Below, piece after piece: positions 42,100 through 62,035 of a stretch of 64,000 nucleotides of DNA (the first letter of the stretch is position 1; every line of letters begins with the position of its first letter). The position numbers and the translations under genes are program-made. The DNA comes from an uncultured Lachnospiraceae bacterium (lineage in GTDB: Bacteria; Bacillota; Clostridia; Lachnospirales; Lachnospiraceae). The stretch covers positions 62,001 to 126,000 of the forward strand of contig CALWLA010000001.1 of NCBI GenBank assembly GCA_944381405.1. The letters are read 5' to 3'. Under the pieces are notes generated by a model. It made no database searches, had not been told where the DNA came from, and saw nothing but the letters and a program-made list of their open reading frames with translations.

Positions 42100-42128
42100 A
42101 TTATAATCCGTCTTGTTAGCACTGTCAA
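42100..42128 (-). promoter_or_regulatory. Consensus sigma-A promoter of groESL
   Basis: TTGACA (42123-42128) and TATAAT (42100-42105) on the minus strand are perfect hexamers with 17-base spacing, about 90 bases before the groES start. Confidence 0.9.
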
Positions 42129-42142
42129 GCTTCGAGTGCTGA
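42116..42142. promoter_or_regulatory. CIRCE operator for HrcA
   Basis: TTAGCACTG-N9-GAGTGCTGA matches the CIRCE consensus TTAGCACTC-N9-GAGTGCTAA with two changes. It overlaps the -35 box of groESL, the expected place for heat-shock repression by HrcA. Confidence 0.92.
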
Positions 42143-42171: not shown

Positions 42172-42210
42172 AAAAGGGACCAACAGGTTGTCTGTTCCGC
42201 CGTCCCTTTT
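42172..42210 (-). terminator. Intrinsic terminator of the Pel-like operon
   Basis: AAAAGGGAC (42172-42180) pairs with GTCCCTTTT (42202-42210), with an inner AACAG/CTGTT stem. On the minus strand the last T residues follow the stem. It starts 15 bases after the stop of the last DivIVA-type gene. Confidence 0.8.
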
Positions 42211-42225
42211 GTTCCTGAAACCCTT

Positions 42226-42960
42226 TTAGTTTTCTTTGTCCGAAGGCTCGTTTTCCGTATCGCCGCAGTCCAGAAGCTCCACCGCCTGATCGTCCGTGTA
42301 GATGTCGGAAAGCTGCAGGGGCATGTTCCGCACCACTCTGCCCAGCTGCTCGTATACGTCGATGAGGTTGTACTGGGCCTGCTTGACGGAATCCAGATAA
42401 GCCTCCAGCCGTTCTCTGGCTGCATTCAGTCTGGCATCCTCCTCCAGCCGTTTCCGCTCGATCTCCTGCTCTGCATTGAGCTTATAGCTTTCGGCGTTCA
42501 GCCGCGCAGCGTCGGTGATGTCCTTGGCCCCGGTACGGGCAGAGGTGGTGATCTCGTCCGCATCTTTTTTTGCCAGACTGATGATCTCCTCGGCGTTTTT
42601 GCTGGCCTCCTGCACCATCGCTCTGGCCTGAGCCTTCATCCCTGCCATCAGGTCCACAAAATCTGAATAGCCCGTTTCGTACTTTTTCAGCCGTTCCTGG
42701 CTGCCGGAAAATTCCTCCTCCAGCCCTTTCAGCCGCTGATGTTCTTCTTCCAGTTCTCTTTTCTGGAACTGGGCCTTTTGTGCTTCCTCCTCCTGGACCC
42801 GCAGTTTTTCCCGCAGTTCCTCGATCAGGCGGTCCTTTTCCAGCAGGCTGTCGGTATTCTTTCTTTTCAAAGTTTCCAATTCTTCCGTCAGGCTGCTGAC
42901 ATATTCGTCTACTTCCGCCTTTTGATATCCGTTAAAAAATACGCTTCGAAATTCCTTCAT
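42226..42960 (-). CDS. DivIVA-domain protein (copy 1, last gene of the Pel-like operon)
   Basis: The 244-residue protein opens with FRSVFFNGYQKAEVDEYV, the membrane-binding DivIVA-type N-terminus. An almost continuous coiled coil follows (about residues 25-205), with a break near 90-110. DivIVA-like proteins sense negatively curved membrane and recruit partners to poles or septa. It starts 30 bases after the related protein at 42991. Being last in the polysaccharide operon it could position that machine. It is not necessarily the main cell-division DivIVA, which usually lies near ftsZ/sepF. Confidence 0.85.
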   Translation of the reverse strand: MKEFRSVFFNGYQKAEVDEYVSSLTEELETLKRKNTDSLLEKDRLIEELREKLRVQEEEAQKAQFQKRELEEEHQRLKGLEEEFSGSQERLKKYETGYSDFVDLMAGMKAQARAMVQEASKNAEEIISLAKKDADEITTSARTGAKDITDAARLNAESYKLNAEQEIERKRLEEDARLNAARERLEAYLDSVKQAQYNLIDVYEQLGRVVRNMPLQLSDIYTDDQAVELLDCGDTENEPSDKEN

Positions 42961-42990
42961 CGTTCTGTTCCTCGTATTTCCTTTTTCCGC

Positions 42991-43929
42991 TTATAAACTG
43001 AAACCGCCGGTATCCTCCAGCGATGCCAGAAGTCCCGCTGCCTTCTCCTTGATGTCCCGCAGGGACTGGTATGCCTTTTCATGGTATCCGTGATCCGGAT
43101 CTGGTTCTTCCGGTTCTTCCTGTTCCTGTGTGTTTTCTTCTTCCGCGGGTTCCGCTTCTTCCACAAGTTCCCTTTCCGGCACCTTGGCTTCCGCGGCCAG
43201 GGCTGCTTCCGGCAGTTTTTCCTCGGGGCCTGCCTCCGGTTCCGGATTTGGCTTAGGCGCAGGGATCTCCACTTCGATCTCCGTCGCAGCCGCCGGCTCG
43301 AACTCAGGCTCAGATTCAGGCTCGGCTTCCGGTTCTGATTCCGGCTCTGGTTCAGGTTCGATTTCTAATTCTATTTTGGGCTCGGGTCCCGGTTCGATTT
43401 CCGATTTCGGCTCCGCCTCGGCTTTCAGCTCTGCTTCCCATTCCGGTTCGGTTTGCGGTTTTGCTTCCCGTTCCGCAAGGCCGGACATGTATTCCCGAAG
43501 CTGCCGAATCTCCTTTTTCAGTTCTTCTTCCAGAGCCTCGTTGCTTTTCTTAAGCTCTGTCAGAAGTTCCTGCAGGCGGGCATCCCTGTCCAGAGTTTCT
43601 TCCTTCCAGCGCTGCTCCGCTTCCGCCCGGGCTTTTTCGGCGGCTTCTGTATCCACCGCAGCCTGAGCCGCTTCCTGCATGCCCAAAGGCGCTTCTTCCT
43701 TTTCCGCCTCCAGCCTGCTGTTTTCCTCCTTCAGCCGGGCAAGGGCCTCCCGAAGCTCGTTTCCCGCCGCGATCTCTTTTTCCAGCTGCGCTTTGATACC
43801 GCTGTTTTCCTTTTTGTTCAGGATCCGGATCGTTTCGTTCTCGTTTTCCAGGGAGCGTATATAATCCATTACGTCTTCTTTTTGATAGCCGCCGAACACG
43901 GTGGTCCGAAATATGTCCTTTTTGCTCAT
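42991..43929 (-). CDS. DivIVA-like protein with Glu-Pro-rich repeat region (copy 2)
   Basis: The 312-residue protein shares the DivIVA-type start ([18 protein letters not shown]) and a coiled coil up to about residue 150. From about 155 to 270 it is a low-complexity acidic segment built from EPE, EPESEPE and similar units. It ends with a short helical tail ([18 protein letters not shown]). The repeat is probably extended and disordered, acting as a spacer or binding platform. It lies 15 bases after the DUF4832 gene and 30 bases before its paralogue. No known named homologue is recognised beyond the N-terminus. Confidence 0.8.
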
Positions 43930-43944
43930 TGTGCCGGTACCTCC

Positions 43945-45366
43945 CTACGCTTCTTCCCCAAATGTCATTCCTCTGGTTCCGTCATAGGAATAGATCATAT
44001 TGATGCCATTCTTATATTGTTTATTCATACAAAGCTCTATCTCCGGTTCCTCCGTCAGAGGATCTGAAATGCCTACGCCGATGGCATATCCCTCACGGAA
44101 CATATCGTTAAAGGGGATATGATTGACGGACTGCATCTGCTCTCCGGGGATAAGCTCCGTTAAATCCAGCGGGATCTCTTCCCAGTATTTCAGCTTTCCG
44201 GTTTCGTCATATACATACATCATGGGCATCCATGGAAAATAGATCGGCGCAGAACCGCTGTTTTCCCAGGTCAGCTTTACCTGAAACTCATTGCCCGCAT
44301 AATCCATATCCACATCCATATGGGAGATCCAATAACGATAGCCCAGGCTGTCCTCCACCGCCTTTGCTGCAGCCGGATCCACCTCGTATTCCAAAGGCGT
44401 GTTGGGGCCGATAAAGCTCATGTGAGACGCTTCGATGAGCTCCATAGTTTTTGCGAAACCGTTGCCCAGCATTTCCTCCATGGAACCGGAAGGCGTGAAC
44501 TCCCCGCCGATTGGGGCCATTTTCCACTGCTCCGGAGCTTCCTTATAGGGAATCTCTCCGTTGGGAAGCGCATATGCGCCCCCCTTTTCCTGCCATTGAA
44601 GCCACTCCAGGGTATCCTCTTCGTCTCCAGTCATGTCGTTGTAAAGTCCCATGTTTCCGTCTATCGCCATAATGTAGTTGCGGCGCATCAAAAGCCTGGC
44701 GTTATAAAAGCTGTCCGCATAGTGATTGGCATATTCCCAGCAGATCTCCGCATCCGGCATCGGCGGAACGCCGTTCTCATGCTGCGTATGCCACTCCCCC
44801 CAGTGCCCCAGGCTTCCCAGCTCCACATAGGCCACGAAGGTATCCTGGTTGCAGTAGTCCCCAAGGGCCCTGAGGGCCCGTTCATGGGCCGCAAGGAAGG
44901 TCTCGTTTTCATAATCCGGCGCGTAGCCCTTGCCGTAATCCAGATCATAGAACACCCCGTCTCCCGTCTGCTCATACAGCCAGTTCGGGATGTCCATATG
45001 TTCTTCTTCGCCGGGCTTATCGCAGACAAACCGCAGCACGGCGTGCTTTCCTTCTTCCTTCCAGCGGCTGATATGATACCGTTCCTCCAGGCCCTTTCTG
45101 TCGTACTCCCCCTCCCGCGGCTCCCATTCCGCCCAGGTCACATCCATATAGACGAGACGGCTTTCTTCCGCAAGCTCTTCATCATCTCCCCAGGGGGCAT
45201 AGCCGGTAAGGGGGTTTTTGTGACCGGCTTCCGGATCCTCCTGAAAATCGATGCTTGCGGACAGATGATACATCCTTGGAATGATGACGAAAAGCGCCAG
45301 GGCCACAAACAGGATCAAAAAGATCACTGCGGCGGCGATCAGTTTTCTTTTCAGGCGATCAGCCAT
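43945..45366 (-). CDS. Membrane-anchored DUF4832-type (glycoside-hydrolase-like barrel) protein
   Basis: The 473-residue protein has one N-terminal membrane anchor (about residues 10-30), and the remainder lies outside the cell. YVELGSLGHWGEWH and the pattern TWAEWEPREGEYD fit the TIM-barrel and DUF4832 domains seen in putative glycosidases. The C-terminal third looks like a beta-sandwich (FQVKLTWENSGSAPIYF). Catalytic residues cannot be assigned with certainty. It overlaps the DUF4956 gene by eight bases. A role in trimming or binding the polysaccharide is inferred from context. Confidence 0.7.
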   Translation of the reverse strand: MADRLKRKLIAAAVIFLILFVALALFVIIPRMYHLSASIDFQEDPEAGHKNPLTGYAPWGDDEELAEESRLVYMDVTWAEWEPREGEYDRKGLEERYHISRWKEEGKHAVLRFVCDKPGEEEHMDIPNWLYEQTGDGVFYDLDYGKGYAPDYENETFLAAHERALRALGDYCNQDTFVAYVELGSLGHWGEWHTQHENGVPPMPDAEICWEYANHYADSFYNARLLMRRNYIMAIDGNMGLYNDMTGDEEDTLEWLQWQEKGGAYALPNGEIPYKEAPEQWKMAPIGGEFTPSGSMEEMLGNGFAKTMELIEASHMSFIGPNTPLEYEVDPAAAKAVEDSLGYRYWISHMDVDMDYAGNEFQVKLTWENSGSAPIYFPWMPMMYVYDETGKLKYWEEIPLDLTELIPGEQMQSVNHIPFNDMFREGYAIGVGISDPLTEEPEIELCMNKQYKNGINMIYSYDGTRGMTFGEEA

Positions 45367-46042
45367 GATATTCTCCGTTATACTGGATCAGGGTAACGTC
45401 TTTCACGTGCTCGATGGAGCGAATATTCTCCAGGAATACGGTACTGTCGGTACGGCAATAGACCTCCAGGATCATTTCCGTCTCATTCCCCCGCAGGGTC
45501 TTGGATTTCATCTGATACTTTATCTTCTTCATGGCCCGGAGCACCTCGTCTCCCACAAGCTCTCCCTCGTAATGCACCACCATGATATAGATCATGCCGC
45601 TTTTCTGGCGGTGATACAGCACATGGATCAGCACCGTCAGCAGCACGCTTCCCGTGATGGCCAGGATAAACATATTGGCCCCCAAGGTAATGCCTACGGA
45701 AATGGACCAGAACAGATACAGAAGATCCATGGGGTCCTTGATGGCGGTCCTGTAACGGACGATGGACAGGGCGCCCACCATACCGAGGGAGATGACGATG
45801 TTGGTACTGATGGCCAGGGTCAGCATGGCGGTCAGCACCGTCATGCCCACCAGGGTCGTGGCGAAGGAGCGGGAGAACACCACGCCTCCGAAATAGATCT
45901 GGTAGATCTTATAGATATAAAGTCCCAAGATCAGCGCCGCTGCCATAGCCAGAATGATCTGCAGCGCCACGTCCCCGGTAAGCGTTTGGCTGCTTACAAA
46001 GGACTCCCATACTGATTTTTTGAAATAATCCTGTAAATTCAT
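45359..46042 (-). CDS. DUF4956 membrane protein
   Basis: The 227-residue protein has about four membrane helices between residues 25 and 145 (LQIILAMAAALILGLYIYKI and following), with the conserved SLGMVGALSIVRYRTAIKDP. A cytoplasmic alpha/beta domain at the C-terminus ends VLENIRSIEHVKDVTLIQYNG. DUF4956 proteins are uncharacterised but commonly neighbour VTC-domain and CotH proteins, as here. It is 37 bases after the VTC gene and overlaps the next gene. It may form a channel or scaffold for the phosphate polymer; this is conjecture. Confidence 0.85.
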   Translation of the reverse strand: MNLQDYFKKSVWESFVSSQTLTGDVALQIILAMAAALILGLYIYKIYQIYFGGVVFSRSFATTLVGMTVLTAMLTLAISTNIVISLGMVGALSIVRYRTAIKDPMDLLYLFWSISVGITLGANMFILAITGSVLLTVLIHVLYHRQKSGMIYIMVVHYEGELVGDEVLRAMKKIKYQMKSKTLRGNETEMILEVYCRTDSTVFLENIRSIEHVKDVTLIQYNGEYHG

Positions 46043-46079
46043 ACTCTTTTCACCCTTCTGCCGCCTGGGGCAGCTTTGT

Positions 46080-46862
46080 TTACCATGATTTTTCCGACCG
46101 GGATACTAAGAACAGCGGCTCGGTACGGTGGTAGACCCTTTCATAACATAAGGTAAATTTGGAGATGGCGGAAAACTCCTGTCCTCCCGGAGGCAGCACC
46201 TCTTTCACCATCTGGGGCAGGAACTCCGTAAACTTCACTTCCATCACCGTTTTCCCATAAGGAATCACCTTGTAGGTGGGAATGTTCGGATCGAAGATGT
46301 CCTTGTCCGGTTCCGCCGCCCGCACGTCCCAGTCAAAGGTCACCCGCACATTTCCCTCCGGCAGGATAAAAGGCTCCCGCTCGTAGTCCACGATGACTTT
46401 TGGCCGCATGAGGTTTACCATACATTCGTAGTAAAACTCCCGGCACAGCCTGTGTTTATGGCAAAGCAGGAAATCGTACTTTCCTTCCATGAGCCATTCG
46501 TATTCCTGTCTTGTCAGGGACGCGGATTCCTTGAAAATGTAACTGCCGTTTTTCAGCTTCCGTTCCAGCTTGATGGAGGAATCGCTGCAGTTATAAATGC
46601 GGATCCGGTATTTTTTCCGATGCTGGACCCCCGCCATTTTTTCGTTGTAGGAGCTGTTCCAGTAATCGTCGAAATAAAGGCTCCGGATCATATAGATTCC
46701 ATCTTTGGCGTAGGGATCCCGCTGCATCACCGCCTCAAAGCGTTCCCGCATGGGCCCGCAGTCCCAGGAAGCCAGGTAATACTTCCACTCGTTGCGGAAT
46801 AGCGGGGAACCGGGCGCTTGACCTGTTTTAGGAATCCCCTTCCACTTCAACATACTGCTCAA
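46080..46862 (-). CDS. VTC-domain protein (polyphosphate polymerase-like)
   Basis: The 260-residue protein is a stand-alone VTC tunnel domain. Recognisable pieces are the basic FRNEWKYYL, RSLYFDDYWNSSYNEK, KKYRIRIYN, KLERKLKNGSYIFKE, PKVIVDYERE and the late glutamate in MEVKFTEFLP. In yeast Vtc4 the corresponding basic residues and glutamate polymerise phosphate from ATP. The residues needed appear present. It overlaps the CotH gene by 35 bases (26 if the second ATG is used), which indicates translational coupling. Whether the product is polyphosphate or another phosphate modification is unknown. Confidence 0.85.
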   Translation of the reverse strand: MSSMLKWKGIPKTGQAPGSPLFRNEWKYYLASWDCGPMRERFEAVMQRDPYAKDGIYMIRSLYFDDYWNSSYNEKMAGVQHRKKYRIRIYNCSDSSIKLERKLKNGSYIFKESASLTRQEYEWLMEGKYDFLLCHKHRLCREFYYECMVNLMRPKVIVDYEREPFILPEGNVRVTFDWDVRAAEPDKDIFDPNIPTYKVIPYGKTVMEVKFTEFLPQMVKEVLPPGGQEFSAISKFTLCYERVYHRTEPLFLVSRSEKSW

Positions 46863-48618
46863 CTGATCCGTCCTCCATTACATAGAAACATTTCGTACCG
46901 TACATCTTATCTCCGTCGATGGGATAATAATCAAAGGCCGTCTGGGTCTTGCCCGATTCGTTTCGCGCTATCACCTCCACAAAATATTGCCCGGCTGAAG
47001 GCATATCGATCTGAATCTGGGGTATCCGAAGATTCGTTTCGGAATAAACAAGGTTCTGATATAAATAGTCCGTAGCGACCCGCACATCATAGGAAATGCT
47101 TTCATTGTCAAAATCATAGGCTGTCTCCCAGTTTATCAAAAGCTTTCCATCCACATTCTGGGGTTCTCCGATATAAAATGGCATCGGCTTTTCCAAAGAT
47201 TCCAGATAGGCCTGGTAATTTTCCTCCACCTGATCCACCAGGCTGTCTGCGACGATCTCATATTCCGATTCCGTCAGCTGCGCATACATGATATCCGGCA
47301 TCCTGTAAACAAAGGGTTTTACCACCGGACGGTACATGTCCGTCAGCGCGTTGATCTTTTCTGGGGTAATGTACTCTGCCTTCAGCGTTTCTATGGTTTT
47401 GGTCAGACCATCCCGGTATTCCTTGACCTTAAACATCCGTTGGTAAAGAAGGTTCGCCCAGTAGTTGCTGATTCCGTCCTCCCAGCTTCCCCGATGGCTC
47501 TGCACCCCTCTTATCCGTTCTTCCAGGGTGTTCATCATACCGTCGTTATCCCAGGAAATAAAGTAGAATTTGTTTACATTCAAGGGGCTGTAAAGATAAT
47601 AGTTTCTGGACTGGGTATCCTCATTTCCCATGAGAATGTGGAATCCCATCCAGTAGAACAGGTTTTCCGTATCGAACCATTTTTCCACCGTTTCCTCTAT
47701 GGGAATGGAATAGTCGTTGACGTCCTCCAGCATCTCGATGAGCTTTGTATGATCGTCGTCTCCCTTCACCTCCAGGTAGTCCTCAAAGGCATCCAGATCA
47801 TAGGTGGGATCCGTTGCAAGTTTGATGGCATCCTCGTACCGCAGGAACTCAAAAAACTCGATCTTGTACATCTGGCCGTTGTTGTCCAGCCCATGGGTCT
47901 TCAGATAGGTTTTATTCATCTGCTCCACCTGGGTGTAAAGGCCGTAATCCTCGAATACGCCGCTTCCTCCGGCGGTTTCGTCCTTCACATAAAGATGGAC
48001 GAACTGGGTCCTTGCGGACATCATCTGGGGAATCTCCTTCATGAGGTCATATGCCAGCTTATTGCGGTAACGCAGTCCCTCTCCGCCGTGTTTGTTGAGA
48101 TTGATGGTCTGCTGTCCCCGCCATTCCCCTGCATCATCCTTCAGTTCGATTTTATAGTTTTTCTGCTCTCGTTTTGTGGATGACTGTCCGCGGATCTTCA
48201 CGATGGCATTTGGAATATTGACTCCATAACCCACCTCTCCAGGCACAGGGCCGTTTTCATCTCCCACCTGCAGGATCCCTTCCACGGCATACTGGGGGAT
48301 ATTATTTTCATCGTACCAGTACTTGGAATAGGTATTGACCTCTGTCCAGGTGTGATCCGTGTGTTCCGCGGAATTTCCTTCCCGCACCGTCAGATACATG
48401 GTCACCACGCTGTCTTCGTCATCGTCCGCATAGACGGCATCGTTGTCCCGCAGATGGAAATCCGCCAAAGACGGAGTCACCTTTTCCACATACTCTCCCA
48501 CTGCGGCAGGTTCCGCAGCTGCCTCCGTTTCCATAGCCGTCTCCCCTTGATCGGAGCAGCCTGAAAGCAAAAGCGTTCCCGCCGCAAGCAGCAGCATCCA
48601 TTTTCTCTTAAGCTTCAT
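46828..48618 (-). CDS. CotH-family kinase-like lipoprotein
   Basis: Start chosen at the ATG giving MKLKRKWMLLLAAGT, which begins a lipoprotein signal with lipobox LLSGC; the frame extends upstream without a signal. The 596-residue protein has the CotH fold signatures: VKIRGQSSTKREQKNYKIEL, LNKHGGEGLRYRNKLAYDL and YFISWDNDGMM, whose acidic residues bind metal and ATP in characterised CotH kinases. The C-terminal part has a fibronectin-III-like domain. Spore-coat CotH is an atypical protein kinase. This one is outside the membrane, anchored by lipid, and coupled to pelG and the VTC gene by overlaps. Confidence 0.85.
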   Translation of the reverse strand: MKLKRKWMLLLAAGTLLLSGCSDQGETAMETEAAAEPAAVGEYVEKVTPSLADFHLRDNDAVYADDDEDSVVTMYLTVREGNSAEHTDHTWTEVNTYSKYWYDENNIPQYAVEGILQVGDENGPVPGEVGYGVNIPNAIVKIRGQSSTKREQKNYKIELKDDAGEWRGQQTINLNKHGGEGLRYRNKLAYDLMKEIPQMMSARTQFVHLYVKDETAGGSGVFEDYGLYTQVEQMNKTYLKTHGLDNNGQMYKIEFFEFLRYEDAIKLATDPTYDLDAFEDYLEVKGDDDHTKLIEMLEDVNDYSIPIEETVEKWFDTENLFYWMGFHILMGNEDTQSRNYYLYSPLNVNKFYFISWDNDGMMNTLEERIRGVQSHRGSWEDGISNYWANLLYQRMFKVKEYRDGLTKTIETLKAEYITPEKINALTDMYRPVVKPFVYRMPDIMYAQLTESEYEIVADSLVDQVEENYQAYLESLEKPMPFYIGEPQNVDGKLLINWETAYDFDNESISYDVRVATDYLYQNLVYSETNLRIPQIQIDMPSAGQYFVEVIARNESGKTQTAFDYYPIDGDKMYGTKCFYVMEDGSVEQYVEVEGDS

Positions 48619-50071
48619 GGGCAGCGCCCTCCTTCCGTTCCAGATAATTGCACAGTCTTGAAAAGATTCCGATCTTGTCGTTTGCCACAAGCTCCCTGCG
48701 GCCCAGCAGGAAGTAGGGCAGCCGTTTCGTATACCACTCCAGCCTCAGCCAGCTCACCAGATAAAAGCTGAGCCCTCCCAGCAGAAATCCAAGGCCGTAG
48801 TAGTTCACCTCTCCAAAGAAGATCTGCAGGATCGTGGCGATGATGCTGACGCCTGCAAAAGCGGCAGTGGCTGCCAAAGCTCCGGCATAGTCCTCGAAAT
48901 ACAGCAGGATCAGCATGATGGTATTGCTGACGGCATAAAGGCCGTAGCCCGCGCAGAGGATCCGGTAGATGCCCATAGAGGTGTCGTTAAAGCCTAGAGG
49001 CAGGGTCTCCAGAACGATGGAACCGATGACGATGAACAGCAGGGTGGTGATCAGCTGTTTGTGGGCGTTGAAGGCCAGCTCCTGGCTCAGCACCGAGATC
49101 ATCTCGTTTTCCGCCTGCTTGATATCCATGATGGAGCCGTTGTCGTTAAAAAGGCTGTAATAGTTCCGGTATCTGGGATAAAACCGCACCTCCACGGAGG
49201 TGACGAAGTTGATGGTGGTGACCAGGATGGAGAAAAAGGCGCACAGGGCCGGCACGTCGTGCATGGGGGCTCCGTAAAACAAGCCTTCCACCTGTACCTG
49301 CAGAGGGCCGAAATACATGATCACCAGGTGGGCGAAAAGTCCCAGATTGACGAAAATGCCGGTAAAGGCCAGGGAACGGAACTTGTCAAACCACCTGAGG
49401 AAGGAAAACTTGCTGCCCTCTCCTTTTGGGAAATACATCAGAAGCCGCCGGAAGTAAAGGGCCATCAAAAGGCCATAGGCCAGGATCACGCAGAAAAACA
49501 ACGTGGCAATGCTCACCTGGCGGAACAGCACAAATAGCAAGGCAAGGAACAGTCCCACGCCCAGGGAAAGAGCGAAATCCAGCACCAGAGCCTTGTAATC
49601 CTTTAGGGCTGTCAGATAGTTCATCTCCATCCAGGTGACGATGAGGATGGCGTAAAACCACAGGCATAAAAGCCGGTAAAGGATCCTGACGCCGGAAAAA
49701 TGCAGGAATATCCCCCACAGGATACAGCCCCCTACCAGCATGATGCCGATGCTGCCGTAGAAGCTTGGCATGATCTTTTCCGGCTTTTCTTCATACAGCA
49801 TATCGGACACATACCGGGTCACGGACATGTTGAAAATGCTGGTGGTGGTGAGGGAAGCCAGCAGGCAGTAGGTCAGCATACAGTTCAGAAGCTCCCTGTT
49901 GTGGCGGCTCATGCCGGCCAGCATGGACAGAAAGGCGATGCTCACCAAAAGCACCACGCCCAGGATCATGGGACCTGCGCAGATCAGCCCCGCATAGCCA
50001 TAGGCGCGGCAGAGATTGAACACGCCCTTTTTCTGAAACAATTTTTTTAATGAGAAACCGATTCCCGCCAT
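48608..50071 (-). CDS. pelG: PelG-like polysaccharide exporter (MOP/Wzx-type membrane protein)
   Basis: The 487-residue, strongly hydrophobic protein has about twelve helices and starts MAGIGFSLKKLF-KKG, the typical PelG opening. Motifs such as VTWMEMNYLTALKDYKA and EVRFYPRYRNYYSLF are also PelG-like. In Pseudomonas and Bacillus cereus PelG forms the inner-membrane synthase complex with PelD, PelE and PelF and moves the chain across the membrane. It overlaps pelF by 25 bases and the CotH gene by 11. Confidence 0.9.
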   Translation of the reverse strand: MAGIGFSLKKLFQKKGVFNLCRAYGYAGLICAGPMILGVVLLVSIAFLSMLAGMSRHNRELLNCMLTYCLLASLTTTSIFNMSVTRYVSDMLYEEKPEKIMPSFYGSIGIMLVGGCILWGIFLHFSGVRILYRLLCLWFYAILIVTWMEMNYLTALKDYKALVLDFALSLGVGLFLALLFVLFRQVSIATLFFCVILAYGLLMALYFRRLLMYFPKGEGSKFSFLRWFDKFRSLAFTGIFVNLGLFAHLVIMYFGPLQVQVEGLFYGAPMHDVPALCAFFSILVTTINFVTSVEVRFYPRYRNYYSLFNDNGSIMDIKQAENEMISVLSQELAFNAHKQLITTLLFIVIGSIVLETLPLGFNDTSMGIYRILCAGYGLYAVSNTIMLILLYFEDYAGALAATAAFAGVSIIATILQIFFGEVNYYGLGFLLGGLSFYLVSWLRLEWYTKRLPYFLLGRRELVANDKIGIFSRLCNYLERKEGAAHEA

Positions 50072-51471
50072 TTGCGCATTACCTCTGTATAAGCATTTTC
50101 ATAGTTTGCGATCATGTCCTCGTGCCGGAAAAACCGTTCCACCCGTTTTTTTCCTACCTTTCCCATGAGGTACCGTTCCTCCGTATGGGTGCTCATGCGT
50201 TCCAGGGCGTTGCAGAGGGCGGTCCGCTCCATAGGCGGCACGCAGAGCCCCGCGCATCCCAGATCGTCTCCCTCCATGCCGTTCAGAAGCTCCCGGCAGC
50301 AGCCCACGTCGGTGGTGACGCAGGGCCTGCCTGCCGCAAAGGATTCCAAAACAGAAAGAGGCTGTCCCTCGGATATGCTGGACAGCACCGTAAAGTCCAG
50401 CTTTTCCATATATTTCAGCACGTCGGTCATACCCGTGAAGAGCACGTCAGAAACCCCCAGCTGTTCCACCAGTTCATAACATTCCTTTGCGTATTGCTCA
50501 TCGTCCTCCGGGCCAATGATATGGAGCCGGACGTTTTTCATGCGGAATTTCAGCTCATAGAAGGCATAGATCAGTGTCTTGATGTCCTTGATGGGGGCCA
50601 GCCGCACGATGGCCCCGATGTCGATCCAGCCGTCTTCCTTTTTCAGGGGAATATCCCGGAAACGTTCAAAATGGATGCCGTTGGCGATGACCCTGCACTG
50701 CTCCGGCCTGCAGCCGATGTCGATCTGGGTCTTCCTCGCATTGTCAAAAAGGCTCGTGACCATGTCCGCCTTGTCGTAGACCGCCGCGGACAGCATATAG
50801 AAAAACCGCACCCAGGTGCGCTTGAAGCCCGCCGGGACCCACCTGGCCCGGATGATCTCCTCCTCCCGTTCCCGGGTATAGATGCCGTGTTCCGTCAGCA
50901 TGAAGGGGACCCCGTATTTGTAGCTGCCGAGCCTCGCCAGTATGCCGCTGTAGCCGGTGGCGATGGTGTGATACAGATCCGCCTTCGGCACCTCCTGCCC
51001 CAGCACATAGAGCACCGGCAGGAACATGGACCTCATGGTGTGGAACATATCGGAAAAGGCGGTGTAGGGATAGTCCCGCTCGCAGATGGCCACAAGGATA
51101 TTCAGGAACTCCTGGCTCATGAGAAAGGACATGGGGGATAGCCTGCGTTCGTTGAACATTTCAAAAAGCACATCCCAGTCAGGCCGTTTGCAGTGGACAA
51201 AGTCCGTCAGCGCCTTGAGCTCCGTTTCCGTAAATTTATACCGGTCCTTTACCGGGGCGAGCTTCAAAGCGTCCTGGAGAAAAACCTCATGGATCTCCAC
51301 CACATTTTTTGGCAGCTTGTATTTGAATTTTCCCGCATCCTCTGAGGATGCGCCGATGACCCAGAGCACGAATTCGTGCTCCGGCATGGCCTGCATATAC
51401 TGATGGATCCAGGTGGAAACGCCTCCTGTCACATATGGATAACATCCTTCCAGCAATACACAAATCCGCAT
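50047..51471 (-). CDS. pelF: PelF-like glycosyltransferase (GT4 family)
   Basis: The 474-residue protein opens MRICVLLEGCYPYVTGGVSTW, as PelF does. It has the C-terminal GT4 EX7E motif in SEGQPLSVLESFAAGRP and nucleotide-binding residues around VRLAPIKDIKTLIYAF. PelF polymerises amino sugars from UDP donors in the cytoplasm and docks to PelG and PelD. It starts three bases after the second DUF2194 gene. Family membership is clear; sugar identity is not visible. Confidence 0.93.
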   Translation of the reverse strand: MRICVLLEGCYPYVTGGVSTWIHQYMQAMPEHEFVLWVIGASSEDAGKFKYKLPKNVVEIHEVFLQDALKLAPVKDRYKFTETELKALTDFVHCKRPDWDVLFEMFNERRLSPMSFLMSQEFLNILVAICERDYPYTAFSDMFHTMRSMFLPVLYVLGQEVPKADLYHTIATGYSGILARLGSYKYGVPFMLTEHGIYTREREEEIIRARWVPAGFKRTWVRFFYMLSAAVYDKADMVTSLFDNARKTQIDIGCRPEQCRVIANGIHFERFRDIPLKKEDGWIDIGAIVRLAPIKDIKTLIYAFYELKFRMKNVRLHIIGPEDDEQYAKECYELVEQLGVSDVLFTGMTDVLKYMEKLDFTVLSSISEGQPLSVLESFAAGRPCVTTDVGCCRELLNGMEGDDLGCAGLCVPPMERTALCNALERMSTHTEERYLMGKVGKKRVERFFRHEDMIANYENAYTEVMRKWRESVSH

Positions 51472-51474
51472 GGT

Positions 51475-53388
51475 TTATCCTTCGCCTCTTTCAATGACCA
51501 CCTGGCCCTGTTCCGCCTTTACCAGATAAAGGCCGCCTCCCAGGGAGGTGAGTTCTCCGCCCCGGATGCTTTCCGCAGGATCATCCGGCTCCCTGCCGTT
51601 GATCCGCAAAAAAAGATAGGCCTCATCCCGGAAATTGGACAGATTCAGGATGATCTCATCCTCGGTGATCTCCTTCTGCACATCCAGGTAGTAATAGCGC
51701 TGCACCGCGCCCGCAAGCTCCGTTGCGGACAGATTCCGGATCTCCGGAGCCGCTGTATAGAGCCAGTCCATATATTCCGAAAGCCGGTTCCGCATGGCTT
51801 CCCAGCCCGCTTCCGCGCCTCTGTCCTCGTCCAGCACATCGTCCGGGTGCATGAAATGGGAATTGACAAAATGAAGGTTCAGCTCCGACAAAGCCGCGAT
51901 CTCCATAAAGTCGTCGATGATGCAGCCAGAGATCACTCGCGGTGTTTCCACGATGCCGTCTTCTGCCACCTCGAACTCCTGGGTGTATTCCACGTCCCCC
52001 TCAAAGTAGATGCTGGCAACCGCCCGGATCTGGGGAAATTCCTCCGCCAGCATCTCCCTGGCCTCCGCCGAAAGGATGTTGGAAGGGGGCACATATACCT
52101 GGGGCTTATTTCCCGGATAAAGATCCTCCGTGAAACGGATCAGCTCCGAAACAGAATCCCGCATATCCTCCCGGCTGGCCCAGTAATCGTAGTCATAAAG
52201 CCGCTCGTAGGTCCCTTTGCGGTAGTCCGGCCCGAAGTCCGCGTCAAAGCCCTCCATGCAAAGAGGGATGTGGTTATAGCCGTGAAGGCCGATCTCCCCG
52301 CCGTCCCGCAGCAGGGAATTTCCGAAATACAGAAACCGCTGGGTATTGCTGTTGGCTGCATAGGGAGGCTCCAGCTCTTCGTTGTAATCCTCGATCACCA
52401 TGCCGCTGTAATAGATGCCGTAGGTTTCCGCCAGCTCCCGCAGGTCCGGCCACCAGACATTGGTGTAAAAATCGCTGACGCTGAGGCCGTAATCCCGCTC
52501 GATATAGGTGCTGGTGCCCGAGGGTACCGGGGAGGGGAAGTCGTCCAGGTAGAAGGCGCTGCCGTTGATCACCGGCCAGGCCGCAGCGTCATCCAACAGG
52601 CTGTAGGCCGCCCCGTAGATTCCACGATAAGCCTTGCCCATGATGCCGAAGTTCATAAAAACGATCCGCCCCTCGCCGTAGTCCCGCTCCCACATAAGAG
52701 GCAGTTCCCGTTCGTCGGCGCTGACCATGTGGACCAGGCAGTCCTCAGATATGGACAAGGTGTGGGCGCTTTCGTAAGGATCCTCGATCATAAAATCGTG
52801 CCCCTGACCTCCCAGCATCAGGTCTGTCTGAAAACGGAAGCCCGGCACTTCGTACATTTCCCAGCCGGACTCGATGATTCCCATCTGGGTGCCGAGGGCG
52901 CGGAAGAAATAATCTCCCTGGGGCGGAAAGTACACCATAAGACCCCCGCCGGTGCCCACCCAGTCCAGGATCTCGTAGGCCCTATCCCCCAGCTTAGAGG
53001 AATCCACCAGGGCAAAAACCAGGTATTCATAGGCGGAACAATCCGGAACCGCATCCGTCGAAATGTCCACGAAATCCGCATCCACCTTCATCTGGGCAAA
53101 GAGTCCCTGGATATCCTCCTGGGCCAGCTGGGAATTGGCCTCCCGGCTATTCCAAAGCACCAGGCATTCCGCGGCAGGTTCCGCCGTGCTGGCGCTGGCG
53201 GCTGCTTCTTCCCCGCCGTCCGCTTCCTGCGAGGCCTCAAACTCCGAAGCGGCCAAGAGCTCCACGGTTCTTTCTCTAGGGGTATAGCTTCCATAGAACT
53301 GCTGCCCAACCAGGGCAAACCCCAGCAGGGTAAACAGTCCGCATATGATCAAAACCGGCAAAAACCGCAATACTTTACTCGTCTTCAT
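51475..53388 (-). CDS. DUF2194 PelA-like extracytoplasmic deacetylase-like protein (copy 2)
   Basis: The 637-residue protein has an N-terminal membrane anchor (about residues 9-30), a variable acidic linker, a Rossmann-like region, and a deacetylase-type barrel. The latter has YLDDFPSPVP (metal Asp candidate) and GLHGYNHIPL (HxxxH), like the NodB-type catalytic core. Gram-positive pel operons carry a PelA-type deacetylase at this position. It is a diverged tandem paralogue of the protein at 53375-55252, sharing blocks such as HFVNSH and HPDDVLDEDRGA. It overlaps that gene by 14 bases. Confidence 0.8.
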   Translation of the reverse strand: MKTSKVLRFLPVLIICGLFTLLGFALVGQQFYGSYTPRERTVELLAASEFEASQEADGGEEAAASASTAEPAAECLVLWNSREANSQLAQEDIQGLFAQMKVDADFVDISTDAVPDCSAYEYLVFALVDSSKLGDRAYEILDWVGTGGGLMVYFPPQGDYFFRALGTQMGIIESGWEMYEVPGFRFQTDLMLGGQGHDFMIEDPYESAHTLSISEDCLVHMVSADERELPLMWERDYGEGRIVFMNFGIMGKAYRGIYGAAYSLLDDAAAWPVINGSAFYLDDFPSPVPSGTSTYIERDYGLSVSDFYTNVWWPDLRELAETYGIYYSGMVIEDYNEELEPPYAANSNTQRFLYFGNSLLRDGGEIGLHGYNHIPLCMEGFDADFGPDYRKGTYERLYDYDYWASREDMRDSVSELIRFTEDLYPGNKPQVYVPPSNILSAEAREMLAEEFPQIRAVASIYFEGDVEYTQEFEVAEDGIVETPRVISGCIIDDFMEIAALSELNLHFVNSHFMHPDDVLDEDRGAEAGWEAMRNRLSEYMDWLYTAAPEIRNLSATELAGAVQRYYYLDVQKEITEDEIILNLSNFRDEAYLFLRINGREPDDPAESIRGGELTSLGGGLYLVKAEQGQVVIERGEG

Positions 53389-55252
53389 AGCTAAGCTTCA
53401 AAATGACCTCGTTCTCCAATGCCTGTACCAGATACAGATCCTCCGCCACTTCTGTGGCGGTTCCGTTTATCACCTGGGAAACGGTTCCCCGGTTCACCCG
53501 GGCAAATAGCCAGGCCTCGTCCTGGAAGTTAGACAGGTGAATGGCGATCTCCCCGTCCCCCTCCTCCACCAGAGGATCCAGATAATAGTATCTTTGAACA
53601 GCCCCGGCCATCTCCGTGCCCGTGAGATTCCGGATCTCCGGAGCCGCCGTATAGAGCCAGTCCATGTATTCTCCGAGACGGTTCCGCATGGCTTCCCAGC
53701 CCTTTGCCGCGCCCCGGTCCTCATCCAGCACGTCGTCGGGATGGAGGAAATGGGAATTCACAAAATGGAAATTCAGCTCCGACAGGGCGGCGATTTCCAT
53801 GTAGGAATCGATCACACAGCCGGAAATGATTCTTGGGGTCTCGATGATTCCGTCTTTCGCCACCTCAAATTCCTGGGTGTATTCCGCCTGCCCTTCAAAA
53901 TAAATGCTGGCGATGGCTTTGATATCCAGAAAATCCTCTGCCAAAATGGCTCTTCCTTCCTGGGAAAGGACGTTGGAAGGGGGAACATACACCTGAAACT
54001 TTTCATCCGGATAAAGGGCCGTGCAGAACCGGTTCAGCTCTGCCATGGCTGTCCGGATATCCTCCGGGCTTTCCCACTGGCGATAGGATTCGTATTCTTC
54101 CCCGTAATAGAAATTGGGCAGCACCAAGGGCATGTGGTTGTAGCCGTGGAAGCCGATCTCCCCGCCCATGTTCAATAGTTCGTTTCCGAAATACTGAAAT
54201 CGTCTGGTATCCGTGTTGCCGGAAAGAGGCGCTGCATGCTCGTCGGAATAATTCTCGATCACAAGGCCCGTATAGCGGACCCCGTGTTCTTCCGCCAGTT
54301 CCTGAATATCCGGCCACCAGACGTTGGTATAAAAGCTTTCCACGTCCATGCCGTAGTCCCGTTCGATGTACTCGCCGGACCCATGGGGCACTGGGGAGGG
54401 GAAGTCGTCCAGATAAAAGCTGGAAGCGTTGATGACAGGGTAGACGCAGCTGTCGGACAGCAGGCTGTAGGCTGCGGCGTAAAACCCCCGGTAGGCCTTT
54501 TCAAAGTAGTTCAGATTGACGGATACCACATCGCCCTTTTCATAGGTATATTTCCAGATCAAAGGCACTTCCGTCTCGTCCGCGCTGGCAAGATACACCT
54601 GGCACTCCGGATCCAGAATGACCCGATTGGCGGAATCGAAGGGATCAGATACAGCAAAGTCCTTTCCAGCTCCTCCTACCATAAAATTCTTCTTAAACCG
54701 AAGCCTCCGCACGGTATATCGTTCTGAAGGGTCCGTTTCCCGGATTCCCATTTGCCGGAATACCATGTCGTAATAGCGATCGGCTTCCGGCGGACAGGCG
54801 ATCAACAGATCCATCCCTTCTTTTACGCTGTCGAAGATCTCGAAAAGTTCTTCCCCGAGGGCATCGTACAGCCCAAAGGCCAGGACCGCCTTCGGATAAC
54901 CGGAAAGCGCAAGTTCCGGTTCTATGGCAACGTCCTGCTCCTCATAGCTGACCCGCATCTGCCGGAGCACCGCCCGCATCTCCTCAGCCGCATTCACGGA
55001 ATTATCCTCCTGGCTGTTCCAAAGCAGCAGGCATTCTGGTTCCTTTTCAAAGGGCGGTTCCTGAAAGGCCTCCTGCTCCAGCACGTCGAGGCGCAGCTCG
55101 GATTTTTTCACAGCCACGTTGTGCCGTTCCGCCACCAGAACGCAGACGATGAACAAAAACAGGGTCATTGCCACCTGCATCCTGCCAAACAACAGCTTAT
55201 GAAATCCGCTTTTTCGGGATGTTTTCTTTTTCTTCTCCCTGCTTTCCTTCAT
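53375..55252 (-). CDS. DUF2194 PelA-like extracytoplasmic deacetylase-like protein (copy 1)
   Basis: Start chosen at the ATG giving MKESREKKKKTSRKSG, inside the end of the PelE-like gene; residues read upstream are a shadow of that gene. The 625-residue protein has one anchor helix (MTLFLFIVCVLVA) and then the same layout as its paralogue. YLDDFPSPVPHGS and GFHGYNHMPL are the candidate metal and catalytic sites. The conserved C-terminal half includes YVPPSNVLSQEGR. Two copies in tandem are unusual for a pel-type operon and may form a heteromer or act at different steps. Confidence 0.8.
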   Translation of the reverse strand: MKESREKKKKTSRKSGFHKLLFGRMQVAMTLFLFIVCVLVAERHNVAVKKSELRLDVLEQEAFQEPPFEKEPECLLLWNSQEDNSVNAAEEMRAVLRQMRVSYEEQDVAIEPELALSGYPKAVLAFGLYDALGEELFEIFDSVKEGMDLLIACPPEADRYYDMVFRQMGIRETDPSERYTVRRLRFKKNFMVGGAGKDFAVSDPFDSANRVILDPECQVYLASADETEVPLIWKYTYEKGDVVSVNLNYFEKAYRGFYAAAYSLLSDSCVYPVINASSFYLDDFPSPVPHGSGEYIERDYGMDVESFYTNVWWPDIQELAEEHGVRYTGLVIENYSDEHAAPLSGNTDTRRFQYFGNELLNMGGEIGFHGYNHMPLVLPNFYYGEEYESYRQWESPEDIRTAMAELNRFCTALYPDEKFQVYVPPSNVLSQEGRAILAEDFLDIKAIASIYFEGQAEYTQEFEVAKDGIIETPRIISGCVIDSYMEIAALSELNFHFVNSHFLHPDDVLDEDRGAAKGWEAMRNRLGEYMDWLYTAAPEIRNLTGTEMAGAVQRYYYLDPLVEEGDGEIAIHLSNFQDEAWLFARVNRGTVSQVINGTATEVAEDLYLVQALENEVILKLSYEDE

Positions 55253-56150
55253 CCTTTCCCTTCCAGAAGGCGACGATCTTCCTGGCATCCGCCGACAGGT
55301 AGATTCCCTTTTCCTCCAGCAGACCGATGAGCCGGCGCACTTCGCTGCCCTCATTCTTTTCCACCGCAAGCCGGATCTGGAACAGATAGCCGTCCTCCAT
55401 ATCCGGCCAGCGCTCCGTAACATATAACGCGCTTTCCAAAGCCTCCTGGAGTCTGCCCAAAGCCAGCAGCTGATCGAAGCGTTTGCGATAAAGCTCCCGC
55501 TGGAGTTTCTCATCTTCCTTGCTTCGTTCGATCATATATTTCAGCAGATCGCAGTATTCCTCCTGCCGGACGCGCTTCACATTTCCTTCCAGAAGTCCGC
55601 TGCCGATATAGGCTTCCAGCACGTCCGCATATGCGCGGCGCCGTTCCTCCGATTCCTTTCGTTCCTCAAAGGCCTCCCGCCTGCGCACAAGCTCCGCCTC
55701 ATAATCCTTCTGCAGCTCCACCATGGCAGTGGTGGCGTAATGCACCACCTCTACGTCGTCGTTGAGCTTGGCCTTCTGCAGCACCTCCACATACTGTCCC
55801 GTATCATGATACAGAATATCCATGATCAGTTCCCGCCGTGTCCTGCCATCGTTCATCAGCAGGGCTTCCTGCAGAGGCACCATGAGGTTTTTCGCCGGAT
55901 CCTCCTCCATCAGGATGCTCCGGTAGATCTCGTCGTTGATCTTCAGCTTTTCGATTCCGACCTCCATGTCCGCTTCCGGATGCATCCTGGTTCGCCACTC
56001 CAGTACCGCCAGGCAGGCAAAGCCGAACACCGGGACGAAGATCACCAGCGGCATGATCATGGAGGGGCTCTTCAAAATGCGCATCTTCATCAGCAGATAT
56101 GCCCCAAGGCAGAGAAGACAGTGAAGAATGACAAAAAACCACATCAGCAT
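55197..56150 (-). CDS. pelE: PelE-like membrane protein with helical-repeat domain
   Basis: The 317-residue protein has two N-terminal membrane helices (MLMWFFVILHCLLCLGAYLL and LVIFVPVFGFACLAVLEW) and then an all-helical, charged cytoplasmic part that looks TPR-like (LLALGRLQEALESALYVTERW). This is the layout of PelE, which bridges PelD and PelG in the inner-membrane complex. It starts seven bases after the PelD-like gene and overlaps the next gene by 56 bases. Sequence similarity to PelE is weak by eye, so position and architecture carry the call. Confidence 0.75.
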   Translation of the reverse strand: MLMWFFVILHCLLCLGAYLLMKMRILKSPSMIMPLVIFVPVFGFACLAVLEWRTRMHPEADMEVGIEKLKINDEIYRSILMEEDPAKNLMVPLQEALLMNDGRTRRELIMDILYHDTGQYVEVLQKAKLNDDVEVVHYATTAMVELQKDYEAELVRRREAFEERKESEERRRAYADVLEAYIGSGLLEGNVKRVRQEEYCDLLKYMIERSKEDEKLQRELYRKRFDQLLALGRLQEALESALYVTERWPDMEDGYLFQIRLAVEKNEGSEVRRLIGLLEEKGIYLSADARKIVAFWKGKDEGKQGEEKENIPKKRIS

Positions 56151-56157
56151 CTTTCCA

Positions 56158-58287
56158 TCACCCTACCTTCTCCCTTACCTGATAGGTAAGCCCGCTGCCC
56201 GCAAGCCGGTTTTCCACAAACCGGAAGCTGTCGGCGTTAGCCTGGGTCAACACCAGATAGAGCCTGCCGTCAGACCCTTCTCCGATGACATCCGTGGTCC
56301 GGATGATCCGGGAGAGAATATCGCTCGCCCGCTGTTTATCCGAAGTACCCAGCTGCACCAGCACATGCTCCGCTACGCCCTTTTCCTGCATTTCCTTCTG
56401 TACGGAAAGCAGCTCCATAAAGCGCTCCGGCCGCATGACGTTGGTTCCTGCATAATAGTTTTTCTCTTCCGTAAGGGCCATATAATCCAGGGCTCTCAGG
56501 ATGGAGGTCTGTACCAGTCCGCAGAGGATCCGGAACAGGTTCATGTAGTTCATGCCGTACTGCTCCGCATCCGCCTCATAAATAAACACCACCAACACCA
56601 GCCTGTCCTCCCGGAAGATGCCGTTGGCATAAACCGGCATTCCTTCCGTCATGCTGGTATTTTTATAGGTCTGCCCGCTCTTTACGGTGCGGAACAGCTC
56701 CTGGGCTTCATCCACCGCAATGGATTTCTGAAGCCTCTGGCGCATCTGATCCGAGCAGGCCACCAGGCGTCCGAAGCTTTCCTTTTGTCCCACGGAATAG
56801 ATGGCGATGGAATGATTTTCCAGGATATCCTCCATGATCAGAATGGCCTCCAGGAAGATTTCCTGGGGCAGCACATGGTCAAGCTTCTGCACCGCATCGA
56901 ACACCCGGCCAAAGCTGTCCTTGAAGCTCAGGATCTGTTTTTTGTATTCGCCCTTGTTTTCGACGGCTCCCTGGTATACCTCGTTCAGGAAGATATATTT
57001 GTCCCGCAGCAGGTTGTACTCCTCCTGGGCGAACTTAATCTCCTCGGTTTTCTTGTTCTTGACGTAGCCGGTAATGGAGCCCGCCATCAGGTAAATGGCA
57101 AAGGGGATCCAGTTTTCCACGTTGTAAAACAGGATCGTCCAGTCCATACCGCCCAGGAGGTACTGGATAAACAGCGCGATGCTGGACAGCACCGCCGCAA
57201 ACACGCCGATCTTCAGTCCATGGACCGTACCCATGGTCACGATATAAAAGAGCCTGACGTCCACAAACCGGAAATACACGCCGTCTCCCATATAAGCCCG
57301 CACAAGCTCTGACAGGAAGAACAGCACCACCAGCTCCACATATTGGATGAGGGCCGGGGCTTCCTCCAAAAGGCGGCTGAGATATTCCAGGATGCCGCCC
57401 TTGTTTTTTCCATAATTCCGGCAGAAGCGTTCATAGAGAGCTCCCATCCGCTCCATCATGTCATCCCTGGGAATCCAGCCATAGCGCTTTCTCAAGCCAT
57501 AGGGATAGGTTTCCTGGCTGATGACATAGGCGCGTTTTTCATAGACGACCCTGAGCTCCGGCTCTTCCATCTCCAGGACTGCCGCCAGTTCTCCATAGGT
57601 GTGGCTGTATCCGCTGGAAAGGATGTAGCTCCCGCTCTCATCCTCGTCCTCATCCACGATGCGCCGCAGCAGATCCCCCAGGTCTCTCTGGCTGATCATA
57701 TCCAGAGGATCGTTTTCCCTGTAGGGCAGAAGGATCTTTTTATCCTTGTAGGCTCTGGTGAATATCCTGCCGAGAAAGGCTCCCTCGTTGTCCATCTCGT
57801 CTGCCAGATAGGGAAGCCTCAGGGTAATGAGCTTCAGTCCCGTTGTGCGTGCAAAGAAACGGCACATTTCCTCCACCTGTCCGGCTCTCAGAGAGAGGGC
57901 CTGATAGTAGTCCTTTCCCATTTCCACACCGCCGGTCCCAATGGACGGAACGTAGTTCTGGCTTTCCACAGAGGACAGGATGATCACCTTGTCCACCTGG
58001 GCATGGGCCGCCTGCAGAAGGGTCTGTTCCAGCTTCTGGAGTTCGTTGTCCTGTCCTACACCGCCGTCCGCATAGCCGGAAACAAATACCACCGTGTGAA
58101 AGGAATACACGTCAAAAAGCTGGGCAAAGGATCGATCCTCCGGTCCGTAACGGTAACGGCGGCCCTTGATCCCCTTCCCCGCTGTTTCATCGCTGTCAGC
58201 CAAAATAACGCGGATTTCATCGCCGAGGCTTGCAAACATATTTTTTTTCAGGAGACCGGTGCGCCCGGTTACAAGAATATCCTTCAT
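56158..58287 (-). CDS. pelD: PelD-like c-di-GMP receptor fused to an N-terminal degenerate SDR/epimerase domain
   Basis: Start at the ATG giving MKDILVTGRTGLL, after GAGG; earlier in-frame codons are possible. Of 709 residues, about 1-295 form an SDR-like Rossmann domain whose glycine motif is altered (TGRTGLLKK) and whose YxxxK site is not kept (YYQALSLRAG). Residues about 312-410 hold four membrane helices, then a coiled segment, a GAF-like domain (about 430-600) and a GGDEF-like domain. In the last, RTTD (663-666) sits exactly five residues before SDGRL, which replaces GGDEF. An intact inhibitory I-site with a dead active site is the PelD pattern for c-di-GMP binding. It is the first gene of the operon. 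Confidence 0.88.
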   Translation of the reverse strand: MKDILVTGRTGLLKKNMFASLGDEIRVILADSDETAGKGIKGRRYRYGPEDRSFAQLFDVYSFHTVVFVSGYADGGVGQDNELQKLEQTLLQAAHAQVDKVIILSSVESQNYVPSIGTGGVEMGKDYYQALSLRAGQVEEMCRFFARTTGLKLITLRLPYLADEMDNEGAFLGRIFTRAYKDKKILLPYRENDPLDMISQRDLGDLLRRIVDEDEDESGSYILSSGYSHTYGELAAVLEMEEPELRVVYEKRAYVISQETYPYGLRKRYGWIPRDDMMERMGALYERFCRNYGKNKGGILEYLSRLLEEAPALIQYVELVVLFFLSELVRAYMGDGVYFRFVDVRLFYIVTMGTVHGLKIGVFAAVLSSIALFIQYLLGGMDWTILFYNVENWIPFAIYLMAGSITGYVKNKKTEEIKFAQEEYNLLRDKYIFLNEVYQGAVENKGEYKKQILSFKDSFGRVFDAVQKLDHVLPQEIFLEAILIMEDILENHSIAIYSVGQKESFGRLVACSDQMRQRLQKSIAVDEAQELFRTVKSGQTYKNTSMTEGMPVYANGIFREDRLVLVVFIYEADAEQYGMNYMNLFRILCGLVQTSILRALDYMALTEEKNYYAGTNVMRPERFMELLSVQKEMQEKGVAEHVLVQLGTSDKQRASDILSRIIRTTDVIGEGSDGRLYLVLTQANADSFRFVENRLAGSGLTYQVREKVG

Positions 58288-58344
58288 ATGGTCATCCTCG
58301 TTTATAAAATATGCACGTTTTCCAGCATGCATTCATAATCAATT

Positions 58345-58373
58345 ATTATAGTATAATCTACCCCCTTTTTCAA
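58345..58373 (-). promoter_or_regulatory. Sigma-A promoter of the Pel-like operon
   Basis: On the minus strand TTGAAA (58368-58373) and TATAAT (58345-58350) are 17 bases apart, about 60 bases before the pelD start. The rest of the gene-free stretch 58374-58601 contains only a run of eight C and no recognisable gene. Confidence 0.85.
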
Positions 58374-61849: not shown

Positions 61850-62035
61850 ATGAAAACGGGCGGGAGCCTGTGCTTCCGCCCGGTTATGTTCCTCTGGCCC
61901 AGAGTGCCGTCAGTTTATCAGTGACTCCCAGCCCAAGGCCAGGTGGGATCTCGCATGGACCGTTTCAGCCCTCCGCTCCAAGGCGGCCCGGCATCCGCAT
62001 CGCAAATATAGAGATTCCGTATGTCAATTTGTGGA
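61850..62035 (-). ncRNA. Candidate structured RNA with its own terminator
   Basis: This lies in the 390-base gene-free gap between cdd and the kinase. On the minus strand a GC-rich segment has a CTGGCC/GGCCAG helix closing a loop (61894-61942), with a CCGC/GCGG stem nearby. It ends in a strong terminator hairpin (61857-61882, 11 bp with one G-U pair), followed by TTTTC. No ORF fits. It does not match any riboswitch, 6S, SRP or tmRNA core that I can recall. The 5' boundary is uncertain. Confidence 0.3.

Follow-up and report, generated by a model that had tools for sequence, protein, structure and literature searches.

An extended Gram-positive pel operon ending in DivIVA-type genes in an uncultured Lachnospiraceae bacterium

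Main finding

The analyzed window (64,000 nucleotides, positions 62,001 to 126,000 of contig CALWLA010000001.1 in assembly GCA_944381405.1 of an uncultured Lachnospiraceae bacterium) carries on its reverse strand a 12-gene array (42226–58332), in which the genes of a Gram-positive Pel exopolysaccharide synthase are followed by genes of the CotH, VTC, DUF4956 and DUF4832 families and by two genes for DivIVA-type proteins (Div1, Div2; Table 1). The explanation favoured here, at roughly an even chance, is that of an extended Pel synthase operon responsive to cyclic di-GMP (c-di-GMP) that acquired, in a single lineage centred on Lachnospiraceae, a dedicated DivIVA-type scaffold for clustering or positioning the synthase. 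The DivIVA end is the part of the operon for which no published description was found; DivIVA has 0 occurrences in the main texts of both PMC7112168 and PMC12345266.

Linkage of DivIVA-type genes to pel

For the comparison of gene neighbourhoods, pel loci were taken from 299 genomes of Lachnospiraceae and 391 class-level genomes; a separate scan contributed 15 more loci. DivIVA-type genes are linked to pel in 12 genomes. They are located directly 3' of the DUF4832 gene in the window, L001 (=L051), L004, L005, L006, L007 (=L054), L008, L010, L012, L056 and L058, and between the DUF4832 and VTC genes in genome G201 (L117), where the contig concerned is probably a continuation of the one bearing pel. 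The unusual DivIVA end noted in a preliminary description of this DNA therefore holds, and a linkage confined to the window genome, named there as a refuting outcome, is discarded. In a tree of PelF, the 11 positives tested all belong to a single clade of 17 rows (SH-aLRT 99). Four negatives and two unknowns belong to it as well, and two changes are enough to explain the DivIVA distribution. At L061 (3–416, reverse strand), a Lys/Ala/Glu-repeat protein, and no DivIVA, is encoded 3' of the pel operon at the place where sister loci have DivIVA.

Div2 exceeds the curated DivIVA cut-offs of both PF05103 and TIGR03544, and Div1 is homologous by profile to the DivIVA-type relatives encoded at other pel loci. 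The single-protein relatives combine a Div1-like N-terminus (FRTxLFGGYxKEDVEEYI...LENEIE) with a Div2-like C-terminus (AAKYKIEQY...MPxRLDDYWE), while the two-protein form is present in the window, L001, L004 and L012. This fits a putative one-gene origin of the pair by duplication with division of labour, in which Div1 would represent the ancestral head and Div2 the ancestral tail; the two proteins may act together. Non-synonymous divergence of Div1 and Div2 is well below synonymous divergence, though synonymous sites are mostly saturated.

Several observations weigh against the scaffold explanation. Div1 has no Pfam DivIVA match and scores below the curated TIGR03544 cut-off (15.1 vs. 22 bits); hence it is DivIVA-type by homology and no curated member. 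The operon of G201 is split over two contigs, with continuity presumed. Several extended pel operons, four of them inside the same PelF clade, lack DivIVA, which is therefore dispensable for this operon type. Finally, the N-terminal profile was built from pel-linked proteins and so is biased towards them; its informative part is therefore the absence of strong matches elsewhere, since all matches with E<1e-20 among the 299 Lachnospiraceae genomes are in extended-pel loci. A further match (2e-16) in G090 lies at a contig end, where its position relative to pel is not placeable.

Lower-scoring DivIVA-type matches adjoin other polysaccharide genes in L127 (BcsA-PilZ, MBOAT, AlgX) and L137 (MBOAT, AlgX), or are located at genes for GGDEF-tailed membrane proteins (L121, L123), whereas in many other genomes DivIVA-domain genes stand beside an amidase or MreB-like gene instead. 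From these weaker hints, one may speculate that DivIVA-type adaptors are a recurrent add-on at Lachnospiraceae c-di-GMP-type polysaccharide loci.

Pel core and c-di-GMP site

Judged by sequence, genes 1–6 are a complete Gram-positive Pel synthase, comprising pelD, pelE, two genes for DUF2194/PelADA-type deacetylases, pelF and pelG. The contiguous series pelD, pelE, pelADA, pelF and pelG of Gram-positive Pel operons is thereby present, with PelE recognized by position alone. The Pel identity previously assigned to the first six genes stands, except that the deacetylase-like genes number two rather than one. PelD and PelE have no family match of their own: PelD is named by position, layout and a conserved RxxD...R site (a phmmer search against the PDB gave no match for it), and PelE by position and layout. 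The second DUF2194 protein matches the solved DUF2194 protein 9zau_A (E 3.4e-56), which is taken to be of the B. cereus PelADA family (JBC 2026, PMC13254593). In L005, L007, L008 and L010, a single open frame spans PelG and CotH. A PelG–CotH fusion was not adopted for these loci, since a lipoprotein-like signal at the join makes an internal start possible; translational coupling is the alternative.

R678, D681 and R709 of PelD (RTTD and a downstream Arg) are invariant in 23 loci. This RTTD...R arrangement is presumably the published PelD c-di-GMP site, so that the degenerate GGDEF domain retains the I-site residues and the earlier proposal of c-di-GMP gating is borne out as to the PelD site. 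The window genome encodes four GGDEF proteins. GGDEF or GGDEF-EAL genes are located directly 3' of several sister pel operons (L012:6931-10938, L010:14864-17470, L117:5401-6786 and L057:16862-19684).

CotH, VTC, DUF4956 and DUF4832 genes

Genes 7–10 follow pelG contiguously, as in extended pel clusters known from streptococci and clostridia. Such contiguity of cotH, poly-phosphate polymerase, DUF4956 and DUF4832 genes with pelDEADAFG was described by Whitfield 2020 (PMC7112168), as was an SDR-like N-terminus on PelD. The extension, singled out as unusual in the preliminary description, is thus known from PMC7112168 and PMC12345266, and CotH-VTC-DUF4956 was dropped as the novelty. In case of S. 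intermedius, single-gene deletions (mBio 2025) indicated that the core genes are needed and that CotH and DUF4956 have a modulating effect on aggregation, while no aggregation defect was reported for deletion of the VTC gene; hydrolase activity is known for SIR_1591, a relative of the DUF4832 protein (PMC12345266).

Alignment of the CotH-like protein to 5jd9 CotH shows the catalytic-region Asp residues of CotH kinases to be kept, and its lipoprotein signal predicts an extracytoplasmic location. The VTC domain matches VTC4 by profile (E 1e-7), and its AlphaFold model (pLDDT 87) has VTC4 entries as best PDB matches (E 9e-15), in agreement with a VTC4-like tunnel fold. Basic tunnel residues and a metal-site Glu are invariant and presumably map onto VTC4 catalysis. 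The DUF4956 model consists of membrane helices and an ACT-like domain with weak fold matches (E 4e-3 to 3e-2).

A second VTC-DUF4956-CotH cluster is present on contig C10 of the window genome, G000 (L114:1729-9767), together with genes for a 754-aa protein, a HEAT protein and a GT2 protein in NELoc-2 order; a GGDEF gene is close by. Hence the triad is not restricted to pel; according to PMC12345266, its authors saw no such arrangement away from pel.

Operon limits

Every junction in the array is an overlap or a gap of at most 37 bases, confirming the previously claimed spacing of less than 40. The proposed promoter closely matches the consensus and is the second best in the region, but promoter-like sites overall occur at chance frequency (12 found vs. 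12.7 expected). The downstream of the two candidate pelD starts (58287; MKDILVTG, GAGG ahead) is the likelier one. A c-di-GMP riboswitch was sought in the leader, where Rfam gave no match. The claimed terminator is weak: the hairpin (AAAAGGGAC/GTCCCTTTT, long loop) folds no better than shuffled sequences and was rejected. Better support for an operon end before groES comes from the promoter and CIRCE-like repeat of groES itself, with which the next transcription unit begins.

Table 1 Features of the pel operon and its borders (positions in the window)
Feature	Position	Strand	Basis or remark
Promoter, sigma-70-like	58345..58373	-	TTGAAA-17-TATAAT, 11/12 consensus; 5' of pelD
PelD	56158..58332 (start likelier 58287)	-	SDR-like N-terminus, transmembrane segments, C-terminal degenerate GGDEF-like domain with RTTD...R
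PelE-like	55197..56150	-	Position and length; same place kept in 64 open reading frames of pel loci
DUF2194, PelADA-type deacetylase, copy 1	53375..55252	-	PF09960, E 3.9e-158; ATG at 55252 with ribosome-binding site
DUF2194, PelADA-type deacetylase, copy 2	51475..53388	-	PF09960, E 7.5e-149; HGYNH motif
PelF glycosyltransferase	50047..51471	-	NF038011, 357 bits (cut-off 100)
PelG exporter	48608..50071	-	PF16933, 438 bits; single copy in genome
CotH-like kinase	46828..48618	-	PF08757, E 1.8e-68; lipoprotein signal LLSGC
VTC/polyphosphate-polymerase-like tunnel domain	46080..46853	-	PF09359, E 4e-35
DUF4956 membrane protein	45359..46042	-	PF16316, E 6e-11; C-terminal ACT-like domain
DUF4832 protein, probable secreted glycoside hydrolase	43945..45366	-	PF16116, E 7e-16
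Div1	42991..43929	-	DivIVA-type N-terminus, Glu/Pro-rich linker; E 1.8e-29 to pel-DivIVA profile (built partly from Div1)
Div2, DivIVA-domain coiled-coil protein	42226..42960	-	PF05103, 31.4 bits (cut-off 28); TIGR03544, 23.0 bits (cut-off 22)
Terminator-like hairpin	42172..42210	-	z -0.20 vs. shuffles
groES promoter with CIRCE-like repeat	42100..42140	-	TTGACA-17-TATAAT, 12/12 match

Proposed function and alternatives

In the favoured explanation, several roles have support from sequence: PelD, PelE, PelF and PelG synthesize the polymer and export it, PelD retains the c-di-GMP site, and outside the cell the two PelADA-type enzymes deacetylate the polymer. The DUF4832 protein is a likely trimming hydrolase, CotH a predicted surface lipoprotein kinase, and the VTC protein keeps a polyphosphate-polymerase fold, with polyphosphate synthesis being putative. 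Div1 and Div2 would attach to the inner membrane face by their N-terminal DivIVA hairpins and form oligomers via coiled coils; in this way they would cluster the PelD/E/F/G complex or fix its position, by analogy with DivIVA at Streptomyces tips, where it organizes wall and beta-glucan synthesis. That a biofilm polysaccharide synthase here has its own operon-encoded DivIVA scaffold, forming a c-di-GMP-gated Pel machine at one particular place in the membrane, be it a pole, a septum or a cluster, is proposed tentatively, at somewhat less than an even chance. To our knowledge, the location of biofilm polysaccharide synthases in Gram-positive cells, and what places them there, are poorly known; synthase and candidate positioning scaffold in one operon make this question of placement directly testable.

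The pair could also be the cell's general DivIVA for division or growth, merely co-transcribed after pel. It would suit such a role that profile searches, within the limits of profile sensitivity, detected no other DivIVA-domain gene in the window genome (a weak match on contig C20 falls, by inspection, at a GntR-type regulator), and that elsewhere in Lachnospiraceae DivIVA families adjoin amidase and replication genes. However, G117, the sole other sampled genome of the genus, has neither PelG nor the pair; together with the lack of another detected DivIVA-domain gene in the window genome, this speaks against a housekeeping role. Since, moreover, the pel-type family accompanies pel from genus to genus, and additional DivIVA-like proteins occur in other genomes (G201, G296), a general DivIVA is unlikely. 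Even less probable is downstream hitchhiking of DivIVA genes functionally unrelated to Pel: it would agree with the restriction of the linkage to one lineage, but is already disfavoured, since the linkage recurs in 12 genomes, the genes are under purifying selection and the position in G201 is internal. A rival with a better, still minor chance is regulation of the synthase by the DivIVA proteins, which would bind PelD/PelE in the cytoplasm and have no positional role, i.e., act as assembly chaperone or GpsB-like adaptor. The conserved tail of the single-form proteins (MPxRLDDYWEGE) indeed resembles a binding surface; yet all 15 sequences retain the hydrophobic residue at the position of the DivIVA membrane hairpin, and membrane binding, as in the scaffold explanation, is therefore favoured.

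A further proposal concerns genes 7–10 and is compatible with a scaffold function of the DivIVA end. VTC and DUF4956 proteins would make and export polyphosphate, which extracytoplasmic CotH would use to phosphorylate polymer or matrix proteins. The VTC4-like fold with its conserved tunnel residues, the predicted location of CotH outside the cell and the co-occurrence of the triad with a chitin-synthase-like GT2 in both the window genome and C. perfringens NELoc-2 argue for it. However, CotH kinases are known to use ATP, and in S. intermedius aggregation changed upon deletion of the CotH or DUF4956 gene, while no such change was reported for VTC (PMC12345266). The proposal thus has a slim chance. 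Phosphate modification of the polymer and its assembly at poles or septa, both suggested in the preliminary description, are putative.

Selenoprotein gene elsewhere in the window

A SECIS_4 element (9494–9531, reverse strand, 56 bits) adjoins an in-frame TGA and marks a selenoprotein gene, which probably encodes a glycine/betaine/sarcosine-type reductase subunit.

Comparison with known systems

The operon shares with Bacillus cereus pelDEADAFG (PMC7112168) the order of the core genes, the c-di-GMP-type site of PelD and a PelADA of the DUF2194 family, but differs by duplicated PelADA, the SDR-like N-terminus of PelD and six extra genes. Gram-positive Pel is a polymer rich in N-acetylgalactosamine and partly deacetylated. 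Closer are the extended pel clusters (PMC7112168, S4 Fig; SIR_1591-1594 of S. intermedius, PMC12345266), where CotH, poly-phosphate polymerase, DUF4956 and DUF4832 genes likewise follow pelG contiguously; the window differs from them by its DivIVA end, of which the main texts of both articles make no mention. The C. perfringens NELoc-2 locus (VTC-DUF4956-CotH-HEAT-GT2; PMC2879425) has the VTC, DUF4956-like and CotH genes in common with the window, but carries a chitin-synthase-like GT2 in place of Pel, and no DivIVA. In case of Streptomyces, growth at the tips requires polarisomes anchored by DivIVA, and the beta-glucan there is made by CslA (PMC13432765). That system differs by another synthase, actinobacterial polar growth and no operon partnership; the likeness lies in a DivIVA scaffold that organizes wall synthesis at the site where a glycan is made.

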